Part shown: positions 5,926-32,623 of the stretch, piece by piece
How the letters are laid out: the number at the start of each line of letters is the position of its first letter
Position numbering within the stretch: the first letter of the stretch is position 1
Made by a program: the position numbers and the translations under genes
Source of the DNA: a virus
Strand: one strand, 5' to 3'
Virus record (IMG/VR): IMGVR_UViG_3300046012_000502
Span: 1-35,516 of that record
DNA: 35,516 bases
The notes under the pieces: model-generated
The model's database searches: none
What the model saw: the letters and a program-made list of their open reading frames with translations, nothing else
What the model was told of the DNA's origin: nothing

Positions 5926-5998
5926 TAGCAGGGGCGGGACTTGAACCCGCGACCTTCGGATTATGAATCCGACGCGCTACCAACTGCGCCACCCTGCG
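5926..5998 (-). tRNA. tRNA with anticodon CAT (Met)
   Basis: A full 73-base cloverleaf on the minus strand: acceptor CGCAGGG/CCCTGCT, D stem GCGC/GCGC with loop AGTTGGTA, anticodon stem TCGGA/TCCGA with loop TTCATAA, variable AGGTC, T stem GCGGG/CCCGC with loop TTCAAGT, and discriminator A. CCA is not encoded. Bases 1 and 72 are C and T and do not pair, a feature of initiator tRNAs, but the anticodon stem has only two of the three initiator G-C pairs and the D stem is elongator-like. It lies inside the virion operon, between capsid and connector genes. A tRNA-Ile with a modified CAT anticodon cannot be excluded. Confidence 0.92.
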
Positions 5999-17975: not shown

Positions 17976-18740
17976 TCAGTGACACGGGGGCGGGTTGTGT
18001 GGGGCTCCGGCTACCCACGCGGTCACGGTGCCGCCGTCGCCATCCTCCAGCGGTCGGAGCGTGTAGGTGCGTCCGTCCGTGGCGAGTCGCACGCGGTCGC
18101 CCAGCGCGCGAGCCATGACGGAGGGGAGCGTGTCCACGGGCTGGGGCGGCGCGTCGGCGGCGTCGGGGGCGTCGAGCATGCGGAGGCTGAGGCCGAGGGC
18201 GTCGTTGAGCAGGCCGGAGGCGTGCTCCATGCCGGCGAGCGCGCCGAGTCCTGCAGTTCCATGGGCGTGGGCGGTGCCGGCGCCGTCGTCGACGTCGAGT
18301 TCCGCCTGCACGGCGTCGGCGCTGCGCTGGCCCGCGGCGAACGCGGCGCGCAATTCGTCGCGGGTGAACGTCGGGTCCGGGCAATACGTGGCGGCGCGAT
18401 CGGCGGCGTGCACGGTCACGGCATAGGTCTGCGGGTAGGCCGAGCGGACGAAGGCGGCGATGAACGCGGCCAGGCGTTCTGGCGTGGTGAACGCGCCGCC
18501 CCCGAGCACGTCGTTCAAGTCCCGGCGATCGAAGGTGGCCGTGATCCACGCGCCCACGGTGCGGGCGAAGGAGTCCGGGTCCACGACGAACCCGGTCCGC
18601 GGCTCTACCGCGTCGGCGCGCAGCACGATGGCCACGTGGTAACTGTGCCCATGCGATCGGTGGCACGGGTGGCCAACGTCCAGGTGCGAGAGTGCGTGCG
18701 CGGCCTCGAATCGGAACACGTGGGTGATCTCGTAGTACAT
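17976..18740 (-). CDS. queD: QueD-like (PTPS-fold) protein with altered active site and C-terminal extension
   Basis: 254 residues, ATG at 18740. The first 130 residues match 6-carboxytetrahydropterin synthase (QueD) or 6-pyruvoyl tetrahydropterin synthase: FEAAHAL with His15, then HPCHRSHGHSYHV with Cys26, His30 and His32. Together these supply the three zinc ligands and the catalytic cysteine. GFVVD and LND are also conserved. In E. coli QueD the general-base pair is Asp70-His71; here the aligned residues are Asp71-Arg72 (FDRRDLND). The pterin-anchoring Glu in VKE is replaced (VHAADR). Residues 131-254 are an Ala/Asp-rich extension foreign to the family. Canonical QueD activity is therefore doubtful. 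No queC, queE, folE or dpdA homologue is seen in the window. Confidence 0.85.
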   Translation of the reverse strand: MYYEITHVFRFEAAHALSHLDVGHPCHRSHGHSYHVAIVLRADAVEPRTGFVVDPDSFARTVGAWITATFDRRDLNDVLGGGAFTTPERLAAFIAAFVRSAYPQTYAVTVHAADRAATYCPDPTFTRDELRAAFAAGQRSADAVQAELDVDDGAGTAHAHGTAGLGALAGMEHASGLLNDALGLSLRMLDAPDAADAPPQPVDTLPSVMARALGDRVRLATDGRTYTLRPLEDGDGGTVTAWVAGAPHNPPPCH

Positions 18741-20997: not shown

Positions 20998-21284
20998 TGG
21001 AGCACGCCGCAATGCCGGCACCGCTGCGCTTCGGGCCGGATGTATTCGGCGCACTCGCGACAGCGCACGAGCGTCCCCGTGGCCAGCGCGCGACGGGTCT
21101 GCACCTCCACCGTGGGCTGCATGACGGCGGCGTGCAGGAGCGCCACGAGCGGCACGGTGAATCCGTAAAGCCACCAGCCGAAGGGCTCGCGGCCCTTCCC
21201 GGAGGCGAGACACGCGGTGAGGGTGGCGCATCCGATCAGCGCCAGAAAGCACACGAACAGCGAGCCAGCGGTCAGCGGGAGCAT
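20994..21284 (-). CDS. membrane protein with C-terminal zinc ribbon
   Basis: 96 residues from the ATG at 21284, with GAGGA about eight bases upstream; longer frames are shadow. Two membrane helices are evident (residues about 5-25, LTAGSLFVCFLALIGCATLT, and 36-55, GWWLYGFTVPLVALLHAAVM). A zinc ribbon follows: Cys75-x2-Cys78 and Cys89-x2-Cys92 (RCRECAEYIRPEAQRCRHCG). The two-helix hairpin plus cytoplasmic ribbon resembles small bacterial inner membrane proteins. Not a holin by neighbourhood, since no lysin is near. It could modify host envelope or exclude other phages, which is speculation. Confidence 0.65.
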   Translation of the reverse strand: MLPLTAGSLFVCFLALIGCATLTACLASGKGREPFGWWLYGFTVPLVALLHAAVMQPTVEVQTRRALATGTLVRCRECAEYIRPEAQRCRHCGVLQ

Positions 21285-21679
21285 AGGGGATTCCTCAGTG
21301 TGTGGTCTGCCGGCGTGAGTGCGCGCGCGGCCTCCTCCAGCTTGTCGAGCGGGATGTCCTTCAGGCGCTGCAGCGCCCATTCGAGTCGGCGCTTGGCAAC
21401 GGCCCGGCGTTCGTTGTCGCGTGCCTCCTGGAGCAGCGCGGGCGTCGGCTGCATGAGCCGCGGCGCGAATGGCCCGTCCCCGCTGGACGATCGGCCAGAC
21501 TTGGCCCCGAACGATTCCACGTTGCCCGTGCCGTGCTGCACGTGGATGCGCAGCTTGTCGCGGCGCAGCACGGTGCGCGCGTACGTCGCGTTCCGGTAGC
21601 TAACGATCACGTCGTCCCCGGCGCGCAGTTGGTCCTGCCATTCGCGGTCAGTCATGGGAGTGTTGAGCGTGGCGCTCAT
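21272..21679 (-). CDS. hypothetical protein with a C-terminal helical region
   Basis: 135 residues from the ATG at 21679 (MSATLNTPMTDREWQDQLRA), overlapping the upstream stop by ATGA and the next gene by 13 bases. N-terminal beta strands (GDDVIVSYRNATYARTVLRR, KLRIHVQHGTG) are followed by a charged helix (LLQEARDNERRAVAKRRLEW). The strand pair could be an SH3-like or PUA-like barrel. No family is recognised. Confidence 0.6.
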   Translation of the reverse strand: MSATLNTPMTDREWQDQLRAGDDVIVSYRNATYARTVLRRDKLRIHVQHGTGNVESFGAKSGRSSSGDGPFAPRLMQPTPALLQEARDNERRAVAKRRLEWALQRLKDIPLDKLEEAARALTPADHTLRNPLCSR

Positions 21680-22431
21680 GGCTGGGGCGCTCCGGCGCCC
21701 GCGGCCAGCGCCGACGCTTCCCGCACGAGCGCCGAGTAGCCGCACGTACAGTCGTTGCCGATCGCGGCGCGCCGCGGGCAGGCCAGGTCGTGCTCACCGT
21801 AGTAGCGGAACCCGCGCTGCCACCGCGCCACCTCCGCACGGAGTCGAGCGGCCGTCGCGTCTCGTGGGTCCAGCGCGGCAACGCCGTCGCGCAATGCCAG
21901 GATGGCGTCTCGCTGCGAGAGCGCAAAGATGGCGATCGATTCCGGCTCGCGACTAGAGAGGCCGACGCACCGCAGCGCGCACAGCGCCTCCTTCACGCCA
22001 AGCCCTCCGCGCTCGGCCAGCCGCTCCAGGGTTTGGCCGTGGTTCCGCTGCACCTGCTTGGCGAAGATGCCAATGATGGACCACGGGATGTCCGGCCCGC
22101 CCTGTATCGGGAACATGCGCACGGGCTCCGGAGCGGGTGGCGGCGCGTCGTCGCTCGCGGCGCTCGTGCCCTCAACCGGCTCGAACGCCCTCAAGAACAA
22201 GTGCTGGTTCACCACGTTCAGGGCGCCCGTCGCGTCGGTGATGATCCAGTCGCCCACGTCGGCGCGCAGGAGGAGGCGACCGTCCGCCGTGACATAGGCG
22301 CACCGGGCCAGCGGATCGTAGAGGACGCCCGCCACGTGCTCCGGGTTCGGGTGCGGCAGATCGAAGGTGGCGTCGGTGACTTGCACCGCCTCAACGACGA
22401 CGGCGCGTTGCCGAAACATGCTGCTGCTCAT
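21676..22431 (-). CDS. multidomain conserved phage protein
   Basis: 251 residues, ATG at 22431, preceded by an A/C-rich leader. Three parts are visible. Residues 1-85 contain ADVGDWIITDATGALNVVNQ and FLRAFEPVE, a small phage beta module that ends in an F-x-x-x-[FY]-E-P-V strand. Residues about 105-150 contain IPWSIIGIFAKQVQRNHGQT and LERLAERGGLGVKEALCAL, a helical element common in phage accessory proteins, in which RNH.Q.LERLAERGGL is strongly conserved. The end (CPRRAAIGNDCTCGYSALV) has a Cys-x-Cys zinc knuckle. None of the three has an established function; joining them in one protein is notable. Confidence 0.65.
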   Translation of the reverse strand: MSSSMFRQRAVVVEAVQVTDATFDLPHPNPEHVAGVLYDPLARCAYVTADGRLLLRADVGDWIITDATGALNVVNQHLFLRAFEPVEGTSAASDDAPPPAPEPVRMFPIQGGPDIPWSIIGIFAKQVQRNHGQTLERLAERGGLGVKEALCALRCVGLSSREPESIAIFALSQRDAILALRDGVAALDPRDATAARLRAEVARWQRGFRYYGEHDLACPRRAAIGNDCTCGYSALVREASALAAGAGAPQP

Positions 22432-25507: not shown

Positions 25508-25902
25508 TCGTGCTCCGTGTGGGTGAGCGAACGGTGGAGGCGATCGATCTCGGCGGCAATCAGCGCGCCGGCTTTCGCGAGATCGTGAATGCGCGCGCGG
25601 GCAATGGCAGCCCTGGTGGGTATGCCCCAATGGTTGCACTCGCCAACGCTGCGGCACCCGCAGCGCGATGGCTCTGCCTCCGGCATGGTCGGCTTGAACC
25701 AACGTCGCGCCCACGGCCACGCTGTCTTGACTTCGAGCGGCCGTTGCCCGGGCCACGCATAGATCGCCCCCGCCAGCGCCATACTCTGATCGCGATGCGC
25801 GTCGTCGTGCTCAGTGGTCCAGCCTTCCGCGCTCACTTGCCGGGCGCGCTCGGCGGCGATCAGCGCCACGCCGTCCTGGGGCGCCATGGGCCGGGCGCTC
25901 AC
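25504..25902 (-). CDS. conserved phage protein of unknown function
   Basis: 132 residues from the GTG at 25902 that overlaps the methyltransferase stop (GTGA); an ATG at 25887 is the alternative. AERARQVSAEGWTTEHDDAH, then SMALAGAIYA, a Trp-Pro-Trp near the centre, and RIHDLAKAGALIAAEIDRLH follow the order of a widespread phage protein family (R-Q-x-x-x-E-G-W ... H-D-D-x-H ... AGALI-x-AEI-x-RL). Its function is not known. A Cys/His insertion (SRCGCRSVGECNHWG) in the middle is unusual and may bind zinc. Confidence 0.72.
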   Translation of the reverse strand: MSARPMAPQDGVALIAAERARQVSAEGWTTEHDDAHRDQSMALAGAIYAWPGQRPLEVKTAWPWARRWFKPTMPEAEPSRCGCRSVGECNHWGIPTRAAIARARIHDLAKAGALIAAEIDRLHRSLTHTEHE

Positions 25903-27434
25903 TGGAGGTCGTCCTTGTGGCCCATGAACAGCGGGGCATAGTCCACGATCCGCGCGCGCGCGATCTCGGCGTATTCCGGCGACAGTTCCAAGCCGAGAAA
26001 ATCGAATCCCTCTGCCACGGCGGCGCGGCCCGTGGTGCCAGACCCGCAGAACATATCCACGATCAATCCTCCCGGGGGCGCTATGAGTTTGCACAGCCAC
26101 TGCATGAGGTCCAGCGGCTTCACGGTGGGGTGATGGTTCGGCCGCGCCCCGGAACGGTTGGCGCCCGCGCGGGGGTTGGTCGCGCCCTGGGTGCCGGGCG
26201 GCGTGTCCGTGTTGGTCACGCGCGGCGCGATTTCATCGAGGCCCGCGTTGCGCTCGGCGCGGCTGGCCTTGCTGGTGTAAAAGAACCGTGACGCGCCTCC
26301 CGCATCATCGAACCCATAGACGCCGGTATGCGACGGCAGGCCCTTGCCCGCGCCATACACGCCGCCCGGGTTGCTCGTGAGTTCGCCGCGCTTCGACGCC
26401 GTGTGCCCGCTCTGTTCGTCCAAGAGCGCCGCGGCTTCTTCGTCCAGCAGCACGTTGGCCGGCCAGCGGCCGTTCGCGTTGCCTACCACGGTGGGCCGCG
26501 GCTTCCACCCGTCGTCGTTGTGCGGGAAATCGCTATCCGAGGCGCCCTTCAGGCGGCGCGTGTCCTCCGTGCCGATCAAGCAGCCGTCGATGTTGAGCGC
26601 GCCCGTGCCGTGGGCCAGGACGTTCCGCGCCACGGTGCCCGCGAGCGGCTTGCGCGCGATGATGATGGGTTCCCAGGCCGGCTTCAGCGCCGTGCCCCAG
26701 CCGTCCCACGTCTTGGCGGCGTCGGTGTGCGGCGCGGTGATGTTGAATTCCTTCGTGATGTACGTGCCCGCGCCCGGGCGATAGAGATCGCCCTCCACCG
26801 CGTCCTTGCCGGTGCGCGTGGCAATCACCTCGCGGCGGGCCAGGTTCTCTGACGCGCGCCCCGGTTCGCCCACCATGCGGTCCACCCATTCCGGGATCGG
26901 CTCCGGAATGAGCGGGCGCATGAGCGCCCAATGCTCCGGCGTCGGCACTGCGGGTTGGCTGCCGGCCGTCATGTAATGCGAGTCCATGAACGATTGCGTC
27001 ACCTCCCGGATCTGTTGCCGGGTGATGGACGTGGACCGCAGCCACGTGGTGAACGTGAGCGCGTCGGCGTGCGTGGCCTCCGGAGCGTCGAGCGCATCGA
27101 TGGCCTTGCCCACGTCGAGCGACTTGGGGAACCCGGACCCGTACAGCCACAGACATTGGTCGCGGATCTGCCAGCCGGCGTCCTCAATCGCGCACGCCAG
27201 CCGGTGGTAGGTGCGCGTGCCGCCGAACGCGGCCAGGTGCGCGCCCGGCTTGGCGACTCGCAGCGCTGCCTCCCAAAACTCTTGACCGGGCACGCCGCGG
27301 TCCCATCCCTTGCCCATGAAGCTGAGCCCATACGGCGGGTCCGTCACAATGGCGTCGACGCTGTTGGGCGCCATGTCGGCCAAGAGTGCGCGACAGTCGC
27401 CGGTCAGGACGCGCGCGTTCACCGCGCGGCTCAT
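25899..27434 (-). CDS. DNA methyltransferase, beta-class (probable N6-adenine)
   Basis: 511 residues, ATG at 27434. Motif IV TDPPYG (31-36) is N-terminal and motif I DMFCGSGTTG (460-469) C-terminal, the beta-class order; DPPY favours N6-adenine methylation. Between them are long target-recognition and family segments: VLAHGTGALNIDGC, GRWPANVLLDEEAA, and HHPTVKPLDLMQWL ahead of motif I. No restriction partner is present, so it is probably a protective or regulatory phage enzyme. Gap 27435-27474 shows nothing. Confidence 0.93.
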   Translation of the reverse strand: MSRAVNARVLTGDCRALLADMAPNSVDAIVTDPPYGLSFMGKGWDRGVPGQEFWEAALRVAKPGAHLAAFGGTRTYHRLACAIEDAGWQIRDQCLWLYGSGFPKSLDVGKAIDALDAPEATHADALTFTTWLRSTSITRQQIREVTQSFMDSHYMTAGSQPAVPTPEHWALMRPLIPEPIPEWVDRMVGEPGRASENLARREVIATRTGKDAVEGDLYRPGAGTYITKEFNITAPHTDAAKTWDGWGTALKPAWEPIIIARKPLAGTVARNVLAHGTGALNIDGCLIGTEDTRRLKGASDSDFPHNDDGWKPRPTVVGNANGRWPANVLLDEEAAALLDEQSGHTASKRGELTSNPGGVYGAGKGLPSHTGVYGFDDAGGASRFFYTSKASRAERNAGLDEIAPRVTNTDTPPGTQGATNPRAGANRSGARPNHHPTVKPLDLMQWLCKLIAPPGGLIVDMFCGSGTTGRAAVAEGFDFLGLELSPEYAEIARARIVDYAPLFMGHKDDLQ

Positions 27435-30284: not shown

Positions 30285-32099
30285 TTATCCGTTCAAGTGG
30301 GGGGGAAACAGCGTCTCGCTCACCCAAACCTTGCCGCCACCGTGCTCGGCCAGGCCCAAGCCGCTGAGGCGATAGAGGGCGTTCGTGAAGGATTTCGTGC
30401 GCGGGTTCTCATAGCCCAGGGCGCGCGCTGCGCCGTCGCGCGTGAGCCGTCGCGGGCGCTCATTGATCAGGAGCCGCAAGAGGGTCCGCGCCACGCTGTC
30501 CAGTTTGGCGTACCACAGTTCGTGCAGATCCCCGGCGCGGTTCATCGCCAGCGGGGTGGAGAGACGCACGCCCTGATCGGTGAGCCACACGCACCCATCG
30601 CCGTGCTCCAGGTTCCCCTTGCCCGCGTTGGCGTATAGCTGGTTCGTGAAACTTTTCGTGCGCTCGGCGTAGCCCAGCATCGCCGCCAACTGGCGTCGGC
30701 TCGGCCGGTCCACGCCCGCCAGCCGGAGCGTGCGCAAGGCGTCGAGCATCCGCTGCTCCAGGTTGCCGCTCTGCGCGGCCGGCGCCGGGCCGTCATTGTC
30801 GGCCGCGGGCACGGTGCGCCTGGACCGCGCGACGGGCGCCACCGGGTTGGCCGGCGCCGGGTTCCGGAGCGCGCGTACCTCCGCGGCCGGCACCGGGGCG
30901 ACAGGCGCCGGGATGTCCATGAGGGTGGCGTGGGCGTCGTCCAATGTCTCGGCCATGCGCGTGCTCAGCGTGAGAAGCGGCTGCGCCGCCGAGGCCATCT
31001 GTTCAACGAGAGGGCCGAGATCCCGCGTGAGCGCAACGAGCGTGGCGAGTTGCGCCTCCCCATACCCGCGCTGCCATTCCTCCCGCAGCAGCGCCCGCAC
31101 GGCCGGCATGGCCATGAGTGCCGACACATCCGGATCGGCGTCGAATACGGGCCGATCGCGCTCGCGTTCCAATGCCTGAATCTGGCGCCGCAACTCGGCC
31201 GGGTCGTCCTGTTTCGCCTTTTCGATCGTCGCCGCCAACGTGGCCCGGAGCGCCTCCACGTCCACCGCTGCCATGGCGCGCGGCGTCACGCGCTGTTCGC
31301 CCGCGCGCGGCGTGTAGCTGCTATCGAACGTCCGGCGATGCCGCACCTGGACGCGACGAAAGAGGTCGAGCCAGCCCGGACTCCAGAACCACGCCTCGCC
31401 GCGCGTGAGGGACGCGAGCGACCCCAGGAACTCCTTCGCGTGGTTCCCCGTGTCGTGCGCCTCTACCCATTCCTGCAGCGCCTTGCGGTCCTGCGGGCCA
31501 GTGGTGCGGTGCACGATTAAGAGTTCCAACATGGAGAGCACGTCCTTGTTCACCGTCGCCGCGCGCTGATCGATCAGGGCAATGCCAAACCCGCTGCTCC
31601 GGCCTTGCCGCACGATCTGTTGCACGGCGCCGACGCACGCCGCGGCCTCCCCGTCCACGCGCTGGGGCACGAGCCGGCTGGCCTCATCGATGATCACCGC
31701 CAGCGGAGTGGGCGCGTCCTGTTGGCCTTTGAGGAAATACAGCCGGCGCAGGAACTGTGCGGTGAACCGGAGTTCGTCGTTCTTACTCTCAAAGCCGCGG
31801 AGCGACAGCACCACGCTCGCGCGCTCGGCCACCACGAAATCCGCGAGCAGCCGGCCGTCGCTTGCGCTGAGCGGCAGATCCTGATGGCGTCCGCCGAGCA
31901 CCACCACGGGGTAGCCCTCGCCCTGGCCGTCCGCGCTCGCCTTCAGACCCCACCATGCGTCGGTCGGGTCGAGCACCACGATCTGCTGGCCGCGCGCCAA
32001 CAATTCCTCGGCGTACACGGCCGCGGTGTTCGTCTTGCCGGATCCGCGGATACCTAAGACGGCCAGGGTTTCCGTGATCGCGTCGAGCGGCAGCGTCAA
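30285..32099 (-). CDS. HerA-like ATPase with tandem winged-helix C-terminus
   Basis: 604 residues if read from TTG at 32099, which overlaps the preceding stop (TTGA); an upstream start in the Arg/Pro-rich frame is less likely. Walker A GIRGSGKT (16-23), QQIVVLDPTDAWWGLKAS, Walker B AVIIDEASRL (134-143), and ALIDQRAATVNKDVL match HerA/VirB4-type DNA-translocating ATPases. Residues 283-317 are coiled coil. Two similar winged-helix units follow (about 446-513 and 532-597), both containing LGY..RTKSFTN.LY. As a hexameric pump it would move DNA or DNA-protein complexes. Directly upstream of the exonuclease gene. Confidence 0.82.
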   Translation of the reverse strand: MTLPLDAITETLAVLGIRGSGKTNTAAVYAEELLARGQQIVVLDPTDAWWGLKASADGQGEGYPVVVLGGRHQDLPLSASDGRLLADFVVAERASVVLSLRGFESKNDELRFTAQFLRRLYFLKGQQDAPTPLAVIIDEASRLVPQRVDGEAAACVGAVQQIVRQGRSSGFGIALIDQRAATVNKDVLSMLELLIVHRTTGPQDRKALQEWVEAHDTGNHAKEFLGSLASLTRGEAWFWSPGWLDLFRRVQVRHRRTFDSSYTPRAGEQRVTPRAMAAVDVEALRATLAATIEKAKQDDPAELRRQIQALERERDRPVFDADPDVSALMAMPAVRALLREEWQRGYGEAQLATLVALTRDLGPLVEQMASAAQPLLTLSTRMAETLDDAHATLMDIPAPVAPVPAAEVRALRNPAPANPVAPVARSRRTVPAADNDGPAPAAQSGNLEQRMLDALRTLRLAGVDRPSRRQLAAMLGYAERTKSFTNQLYANAGKGNLEHGDGCVWLTDQGVRLSTPLAMNRAGDLHELWYAKLDSVARTLLRLLINERPRRLTRDGAARALGYENPRTKSFTNALYRLSGLGLAEHGGGKVWVSETLFPPHLNG

Positions 32100-32623
32100 G
32101 CCGCCGCCGAGGTCCAGCGCATCGTGTGGGGTGGGAGCGTTGATGGGGTGATGTCGGGGTGTGGGGGAGTGTCGGGGCCTGCGGGCGGATGCTGTTCCGC
32201 GGCGCGGAGTTCGTCGGGCAATGGGGCGCCGCCCAGATGGAGGCGTAAGAATTTCAGCATGCCGCTCATGCTCATGCCGTCCGGCATGCGCGTTTCGTCC
32301 ACGAAGAGCCACATGTTGTCCGGGAGCGCACTCGCCATCCACCACGTGGGCTGCGGGGGTTCCGGCTTGGGGCGCGCGCCGCACCAGGTGGCCACGCGCA
32401 TGCGCGGCATCCCTGGGGCCGGGTCCTTGTCGATCACGACGAGCGCCGCGTCATAGCGGCTGCTAATGGCCACGACGCCACCGGCCTGCATGGCCTGGAG
32501 CGTCGAGAACGCGAACGCCACGCCGGGCACGCCATCCCGACTGCGGAAGGCGAGCGCGATGGGCAGGCCGGGCGGCGCGGGCTGCGGCGCATCACCGGGC
32601 GCGCCGGAGGGATCGGCCGTCAC
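32096..32623 (-). CDS. hypothetical protein
   Basis: 175 residues from a GTG at 32623 that overlaps the upstream stop (GTGA); the longer frame to 32938 is Arg-rich shadow. Beta strands (LPIALAFRSRDGVPGVAFAF, GVVAISSRYDAALVVIDKDP) precede a Trp-rich segment (PTWWMASALPDNMWLFVDET) and a helix (SGMLKFLRLHLGG). The last 25 residues are Pro/His/Thr-rich because they read through A/C-rich DNA. Function unknown; overlaps the HerA start. Confidence 0.6.
   Translation of the reverse strand: MTADPSGAPGDAPQPAPPGLPIALAFRSRDGVPGVAFAFSTLQAMQAGGVVAISSRYDAALVVIDKDPAPGMPRMRVATWCGARPKPEPPQPTWWMASALPDNMWLFVDETRMPDGMSMSGMLKFLRLHLGGAPLPDELRAAEQHPPAGPDTPPHPDITPSTLPPHTMRWTSAAA

Follow-up and report, generated by a model that had tools for sequence, protein, structure and literature searches.

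A solitary and diverged phage QueD-like protein, probably impaired in catalysis, with a private C-terminal extension

QueD helps to make a modified guanine base, and in phages it usually contributes one step to a pathway of DNA modification that protects their DNA from restriction. For what role would a phage keep a QueD-like gene that stands alone and whose product lacks two active-site residues? The question is raised by an IMG/VR viral record of 35,516 bases, analysed as a whole and referred to below as the window, which carries genes for tail, capsid, TerL, HNH, methyltransferase, HerA-like and RecT proteins and is a fragment, with RecT cut at its right end. Such a gene would offer a test case for repurposing after pathway loss, and a caution that not every viral PF01242 match is a preQ0 enzyme. 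Its features are as follows.

17976..18740, minus strand: QueD-like open reading frame (PTPS, PF01242; Pfam match), ATG at 18740, stop at 17976-17978, 254 aa
18375..18740, minus strand: PTPS/QueD T-fold domain, residues 1-122 (AlphaFold2 pLDDT; structural match to 4ntn_B)
18645..18698, minus strand: residues 15-32, zinc ligands H15, H30 and H32 and nucleophile C26 (CxxxHGH), invariant in the 49-sequence alignment A2
18525..18530, minus strand: D71-R72 (GAT CGC) replacing the Asp-His pair (alignment; D-H in 85/85 relatives)
18477..18485, minus strand: T86-P87-E88, the T-x-E substrate-ring site, kept (E88 invariant in A2)
18405..18413, minus strand: V110-H111-A112 (GTG CAC GCC) replacing V-x-E (alignment; E in 119/119 full-length viral relatives)
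17979..18377, minus strand: private C-terminal extension, residues 122-254, 133 aa (AlphaFold2; no phage match at E<=1)

The QueD-like domain, its active site and the extension

The QueD-like domain of the original prediction is borne out by Pfam, in which the protein scores 63 bits over residues 4-113 (gathering cut-off 22.4), and by a T-fold in the predicted model, which together place it in PF01242. AlphaFold2 with alignment A2 gave 10-residue blocks of residues 1-120 mean pLDDT values of 91-97, and the predicted domain matches E. coli QueD (4ntn_B) with a Z of 17.6 and an rmsd of 1.5 over 118 aligned residues (VIA-align); the nearest solved structures are the E. coli and Pseudomonas QueD proteins. 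The protein is nevertheless diverged. It reaches 54.7 bits against the NCBIfam QueD equivalog TIGR03367, below the cut-off of 89.25, its best matches are merely about 38-48% identical, and no close relatives of the whole protein or of the domain alone were found in viral contigs or genome contigs. In a 54-row tree, built on a short alignment and hence of limited resolution, it forms the longest terminal branch (1.41 versus a median of 0.41) inside a group of 43 QueD-like proteins whose branching is unresolved, so that a separate named subfamily is unsupported. Both a structure prediction and a tree of PF01242 members had been proposed as checks at the outset; the first yields a confident QueD-like T-fold domain, and the second puts the protein among QueD-like proteins, none of the compared relatives having both substitutions.

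The positions invariant across the 49 sequences of A2 are H15, H24, C26, R28, H30, G31, H32, D54, D71, N76 and E88. The zinc ligands and Cys26 are thus in place as originally read, and the protein has the CxxxHGH motif of QueD (PTPS-I; PMC5041015) along with the three zinc histidines. It has neither the CxxxxxHGH motif of PTPS-II (biopterin), C26 and H30 being separated by three residues rather than five, nor the ExxHGH motif of PTPS-III (folate), position 27 being His. The Asp-His pair, which we take to be Asp70-His71 in E. coli QueD, is catalytic in the PTPS/QueD family, and here it reads D71-R72, in agreement with the first reading of GAT CGC. The substrate glutamate of V-x-E is likewise missing, its place being taken by A112. 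The His-to-Arg exchange requires one base change (CAC to CGC), as had been proposed, and the Glu-to-Ala exchange requires two (GAA or GAG to GCC), so that a single sequencing error cannot account for both losses.

The original prediction held that the glutamate anchoring the pterin had been lost. The reading V-H-A stands, but this is only one of two acidic positions that contact the substrate, and the other, E88, is intact. In rat PTPS, T105/T106/E107 form the substrate-ring site, as quoted in a passage of PMC7546909, and on the basis of the common T-x-E motif T86 and E88 are taken to be equivalent to T105 and E107; as judged from the alignment, one of the two putative acidic contacts is still present in the window protein. 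We also considered D114 as a substitute acid, which is unlikely given that L013, L066 and other relatives in A2 carry an acid there in addition to the V-x-E glutamate.

The extension of 133 aa agrees with the unique tail noted originally: searched alone against 50,697 phage records, it gave no match at E<=1, and a comparison with the other window proteins returned short chance matches only. AlphaFold2 predicts a helix at residues 127-151 with pLDDT in the 70s; from residue 155 onward the confidence is low, and the extension folded alone has a mean pLDDT of 53. Its GC3 is 0.83-0.97 over residues 121-240 and 0.67 in the last 15 codons. Because this high-GC codon-position bias persists almost to the stop, the extension looks coding.

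Rarity of the two substitutions

Of the compared relatives, which comprise 80 viral loci and five proteins from phage and plasmid records, 85/85 carry both Asp-His and the glutamate of V-x-E. Neither of the two search patterns behind this set demanded His at position 72: one accepted Arg there as well, and the other placed no constraint on the position, so the set was not selected for His. The Asp-His pattern itself occurs in at least 120 stretches in viral contigs. A second set, consisting of 120 further viral stretches picked for Asp-His plus the locus L169, has Glu in 119/119 rows that extend to the glutamate column; the remaining two rows end at a contig edge. A scan of viral contigs at the usual 36-residue spacing, with Arg or Ser following the Asp, yielded one true viral PTPS, L169 (D-R); the remaining matches read as glycosyltransferase-like proteins, and a scan at the window protein's own 38-residue spacing gave matches by chance alone. 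An Asp-Arg pattern combined with the Cys had zero matches in genome contigs, in a scan without a positive control from that collection. Both substitutions are therefore rare, as first suspected, but His-to-Arg by itself is not unique, since L169 has it too; the two losses together occur in the window protein alone among all proteins examined.

L169 (1933-2316) encodes a viral QueD-like protein in a 105.8-kb record (IMGVR_UViG_3300032893_000735) in which neither QueC nor radical SAM had a match. It shares with the window protein the His-to-Arg change at the same position. Unlike the window protein, it keeps the glutamate (in R-E-T), has no extension, places near enterobacterial-type QueD in the tree and lies directly upstream of a phrog_887 transglycosylase gene. 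An Asp-Arg QueD beside a DpdA-like gene hints that Arg is tolerable in a pathway setting.

These comparisons bear on whether the window protein could be a working T-fold enzyme of altered chemistry, in which zinc, Cys26, Asp71, T86 and E88 act on a pterin- or purine-like substrate in a pocket reshaped by R72 and H111. The retention of the zinc ligands, Cys, D71, N76 and E88 speaks for it, as does L169 with its Asp-Arg beside DpdA; furthermore, one active-site change, Cys to Glu, redirects the chemistry of Plasmodium PTPS (PMC2229834). We nevertheless regard this as rather unlikely, in view of two losses at otherwise kept positions, the lack of a metabolic partner gene within 35.5 kb and the lack of a relative with the same residues that would define a subfamily.

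Gene context and pathway partners

QueC, TGT, FolE, radical SAM and the phage DpdA (phrog_887) had no match anywhere in the 35.5-kb window, which upholds the original remark that no other 7-deazaguanine gene is in view; the linkage to preQ0/7-deazaguanine genes that is typical of QueD (PTPS-I) is absent within this fragment. By comparison, QueC or a DpdA-like transglycosylase is present in 40/40 viral records with intact QueD (L007-L085), these being drawn from the best-scoring loci on longer contigs rather than at random. QueC occurs in 27 of them; each of the 13 records without it has phrog_887 together with a radical-SAM match. The distance from queD to the nearest QueC or DpdA gene has a median of 940 bases and is at most 5 kb in 36/40 and at most 16 kb in 39/40 records. 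The QueD-like gene of the window is flanked by 16.8 and 17.9 kb, enough to make the absence of partners informative even though the record is incomplete. The 40/40 linkage also provides a benchmark for finding such outliers.

Two alternatives are affected by this context. The protein could be an ordinary QueD that tolerates its substitutions, with the other pathway genes lying outside the fragment or supplied by the host. The window is indeed incomplete, and hosts may supply pathway steps (Hutinet et al. 2019, PMC6884629), but the flanks exceed the distance within which 39/40 records have a partner, and the compared relatives keep both H and E, which makes this highly improbable. Alternatively, queD is a remnant drifting toward deletion in a phage lineage whose 7-deazaguanine cluster has been lost, as the missing partners, the long terminal branch and the low identity of the best matches would allow. 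A decaying gene would fit poorly with an open frame under strong codon-position GC bias over nearly its whole length, with the retention of positions invariant in relatives, all zinc ligands included, and with a QueD domain that is still predicted confidently, and we consider decay unlikely.

The rest of the window yielded some further observations. The immediate neighbours upstream and downstream of the QueD-like frame gave no matches, and none of the terminase loci searched for syntenic phages carries a window-like PTPS. The nearest terminase relative, the TerL in L087 (255-1877), is 70% identical to that of the window; at E<=1e-5 it is the one gene that its 4.5-kb contig has in common with the window. 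A large frame at 30285-32384 has HerA-like ATPase matches (Pfam DUF87, HerA_C) and a 35% identical relative in L114, which also has a related TerL. The 511-aa N6/N4 DNA methyltransferase-like protein at 25899-27434 has partial homologues in several QueD-carrying loci (L011, L012, L194, L205 and L281). There is a weak Phage_ProQ_C_like match at 21272-21745 (PF24203, 28.1 bits, barely above cut-off) and a tRNA-Met (CAT) at 5926-5998, on the minus strand between structural-region frames.

Proposed role and comparison with known systems

Together, these observations suggest a phage QueD-like gene that would have become detached from the 7-deazaguanine pathway, because all 40 intact-QueD records carry QueC or DpdA and the window carries none, and because the record of the other Asp-Arg QueD likewise lacks matches to QueC and radical SAM. 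The protein is best read as a solitary and diverged phage QueD that is probably impaired in catalysis and whose private C-terminal extension is mostly predicted with low confidence. Its substitutions lie where every compared relative is conserved, and it is quite likely that canonical activity is lost and 6-carboxytetrahydropterin is no longer made at a useful rate. As to what it does instead, we see about an even chance that the protein belongs, as a diverged phage member, to the QueD (PTPS-I) branch of COG0720 and is retained for a non-catalytic role, a reading favoured by the sub-threshold equivalog score and terminal branch length and by a domain model that remains confident and QueD-like. 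The protein would still fold and assemble as a zinc-loaded T-fold oligomer, which may serve as a binding or scaffold protein instead of an enzyme. Against such a role, the intact T86, E88, Cys and zinc ligands make some substrate binding or residual chemistry possible, L169 hints at tolerance of Arg, and partners could lie beyond the fragment; with no close homologue found on which to gauge selection, decay without function also keeps some probability.

The PTPS active site is reportedly intersubunit, going by the title of Burgisser et al. 1995, so that one concrete form of a non-catalytic role would be mixed assembly with host QueD. In such an oligomer, R72 and A112 might spoil host active sites, or host residues might complete the phage half-site. 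This is speculative and distinctly unlikely, and the loss of canonical activity is better supported. Less probable still is a pseudo-QueD role in which the phage protein disturbs T-fold enzymes of the host or immunity that depends on 7-deazaguanine; mixed oligomers with host QueD would, for example, lower the preQ0-pathway intermediates used by type IV CBASS or Qat.

Reuse of this kind has a precedent in the QueC family: according to passages of PMC13329287, its members QatC and Cap9 were co-opted for the immunity systems Qat and type IV CBASS, so that 7-deazaguanine-pathway enzymes are turned to phage-host conflict. They differ from the window protein in fold and family, those passages contain no QueD counterpart, and they serve as precedent rather than as evidence on the window protein. 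The closest comparison in structure is E. coli QueD (4ntk, 4ntm, 4ntn; PTPS-I, COG0720), with which the window protein shares the fold, CxxxHGH, the three zinc histidines, the Asp and T-x-E; it differs in having Arg for the His of Asp-His and Ala for the Glu of V-x-E, and it departs from QueD (PTPS-I) in its extension of about 130 residues, its lack of linked preQ0 genes and its score below the NCBIfam QueD cut-off. Among phages, the QueD proteins of 7-deazaguanine DNA-modification clusters, such as those of Arthrobacter phages Sonali and Mufasa8, are 33-36% identical to the window domain; unlike the window protein, they keep D-H and V-x-E, and their genes adjoin those for queC, a transglycosylase and GTP cyclohydrolase.
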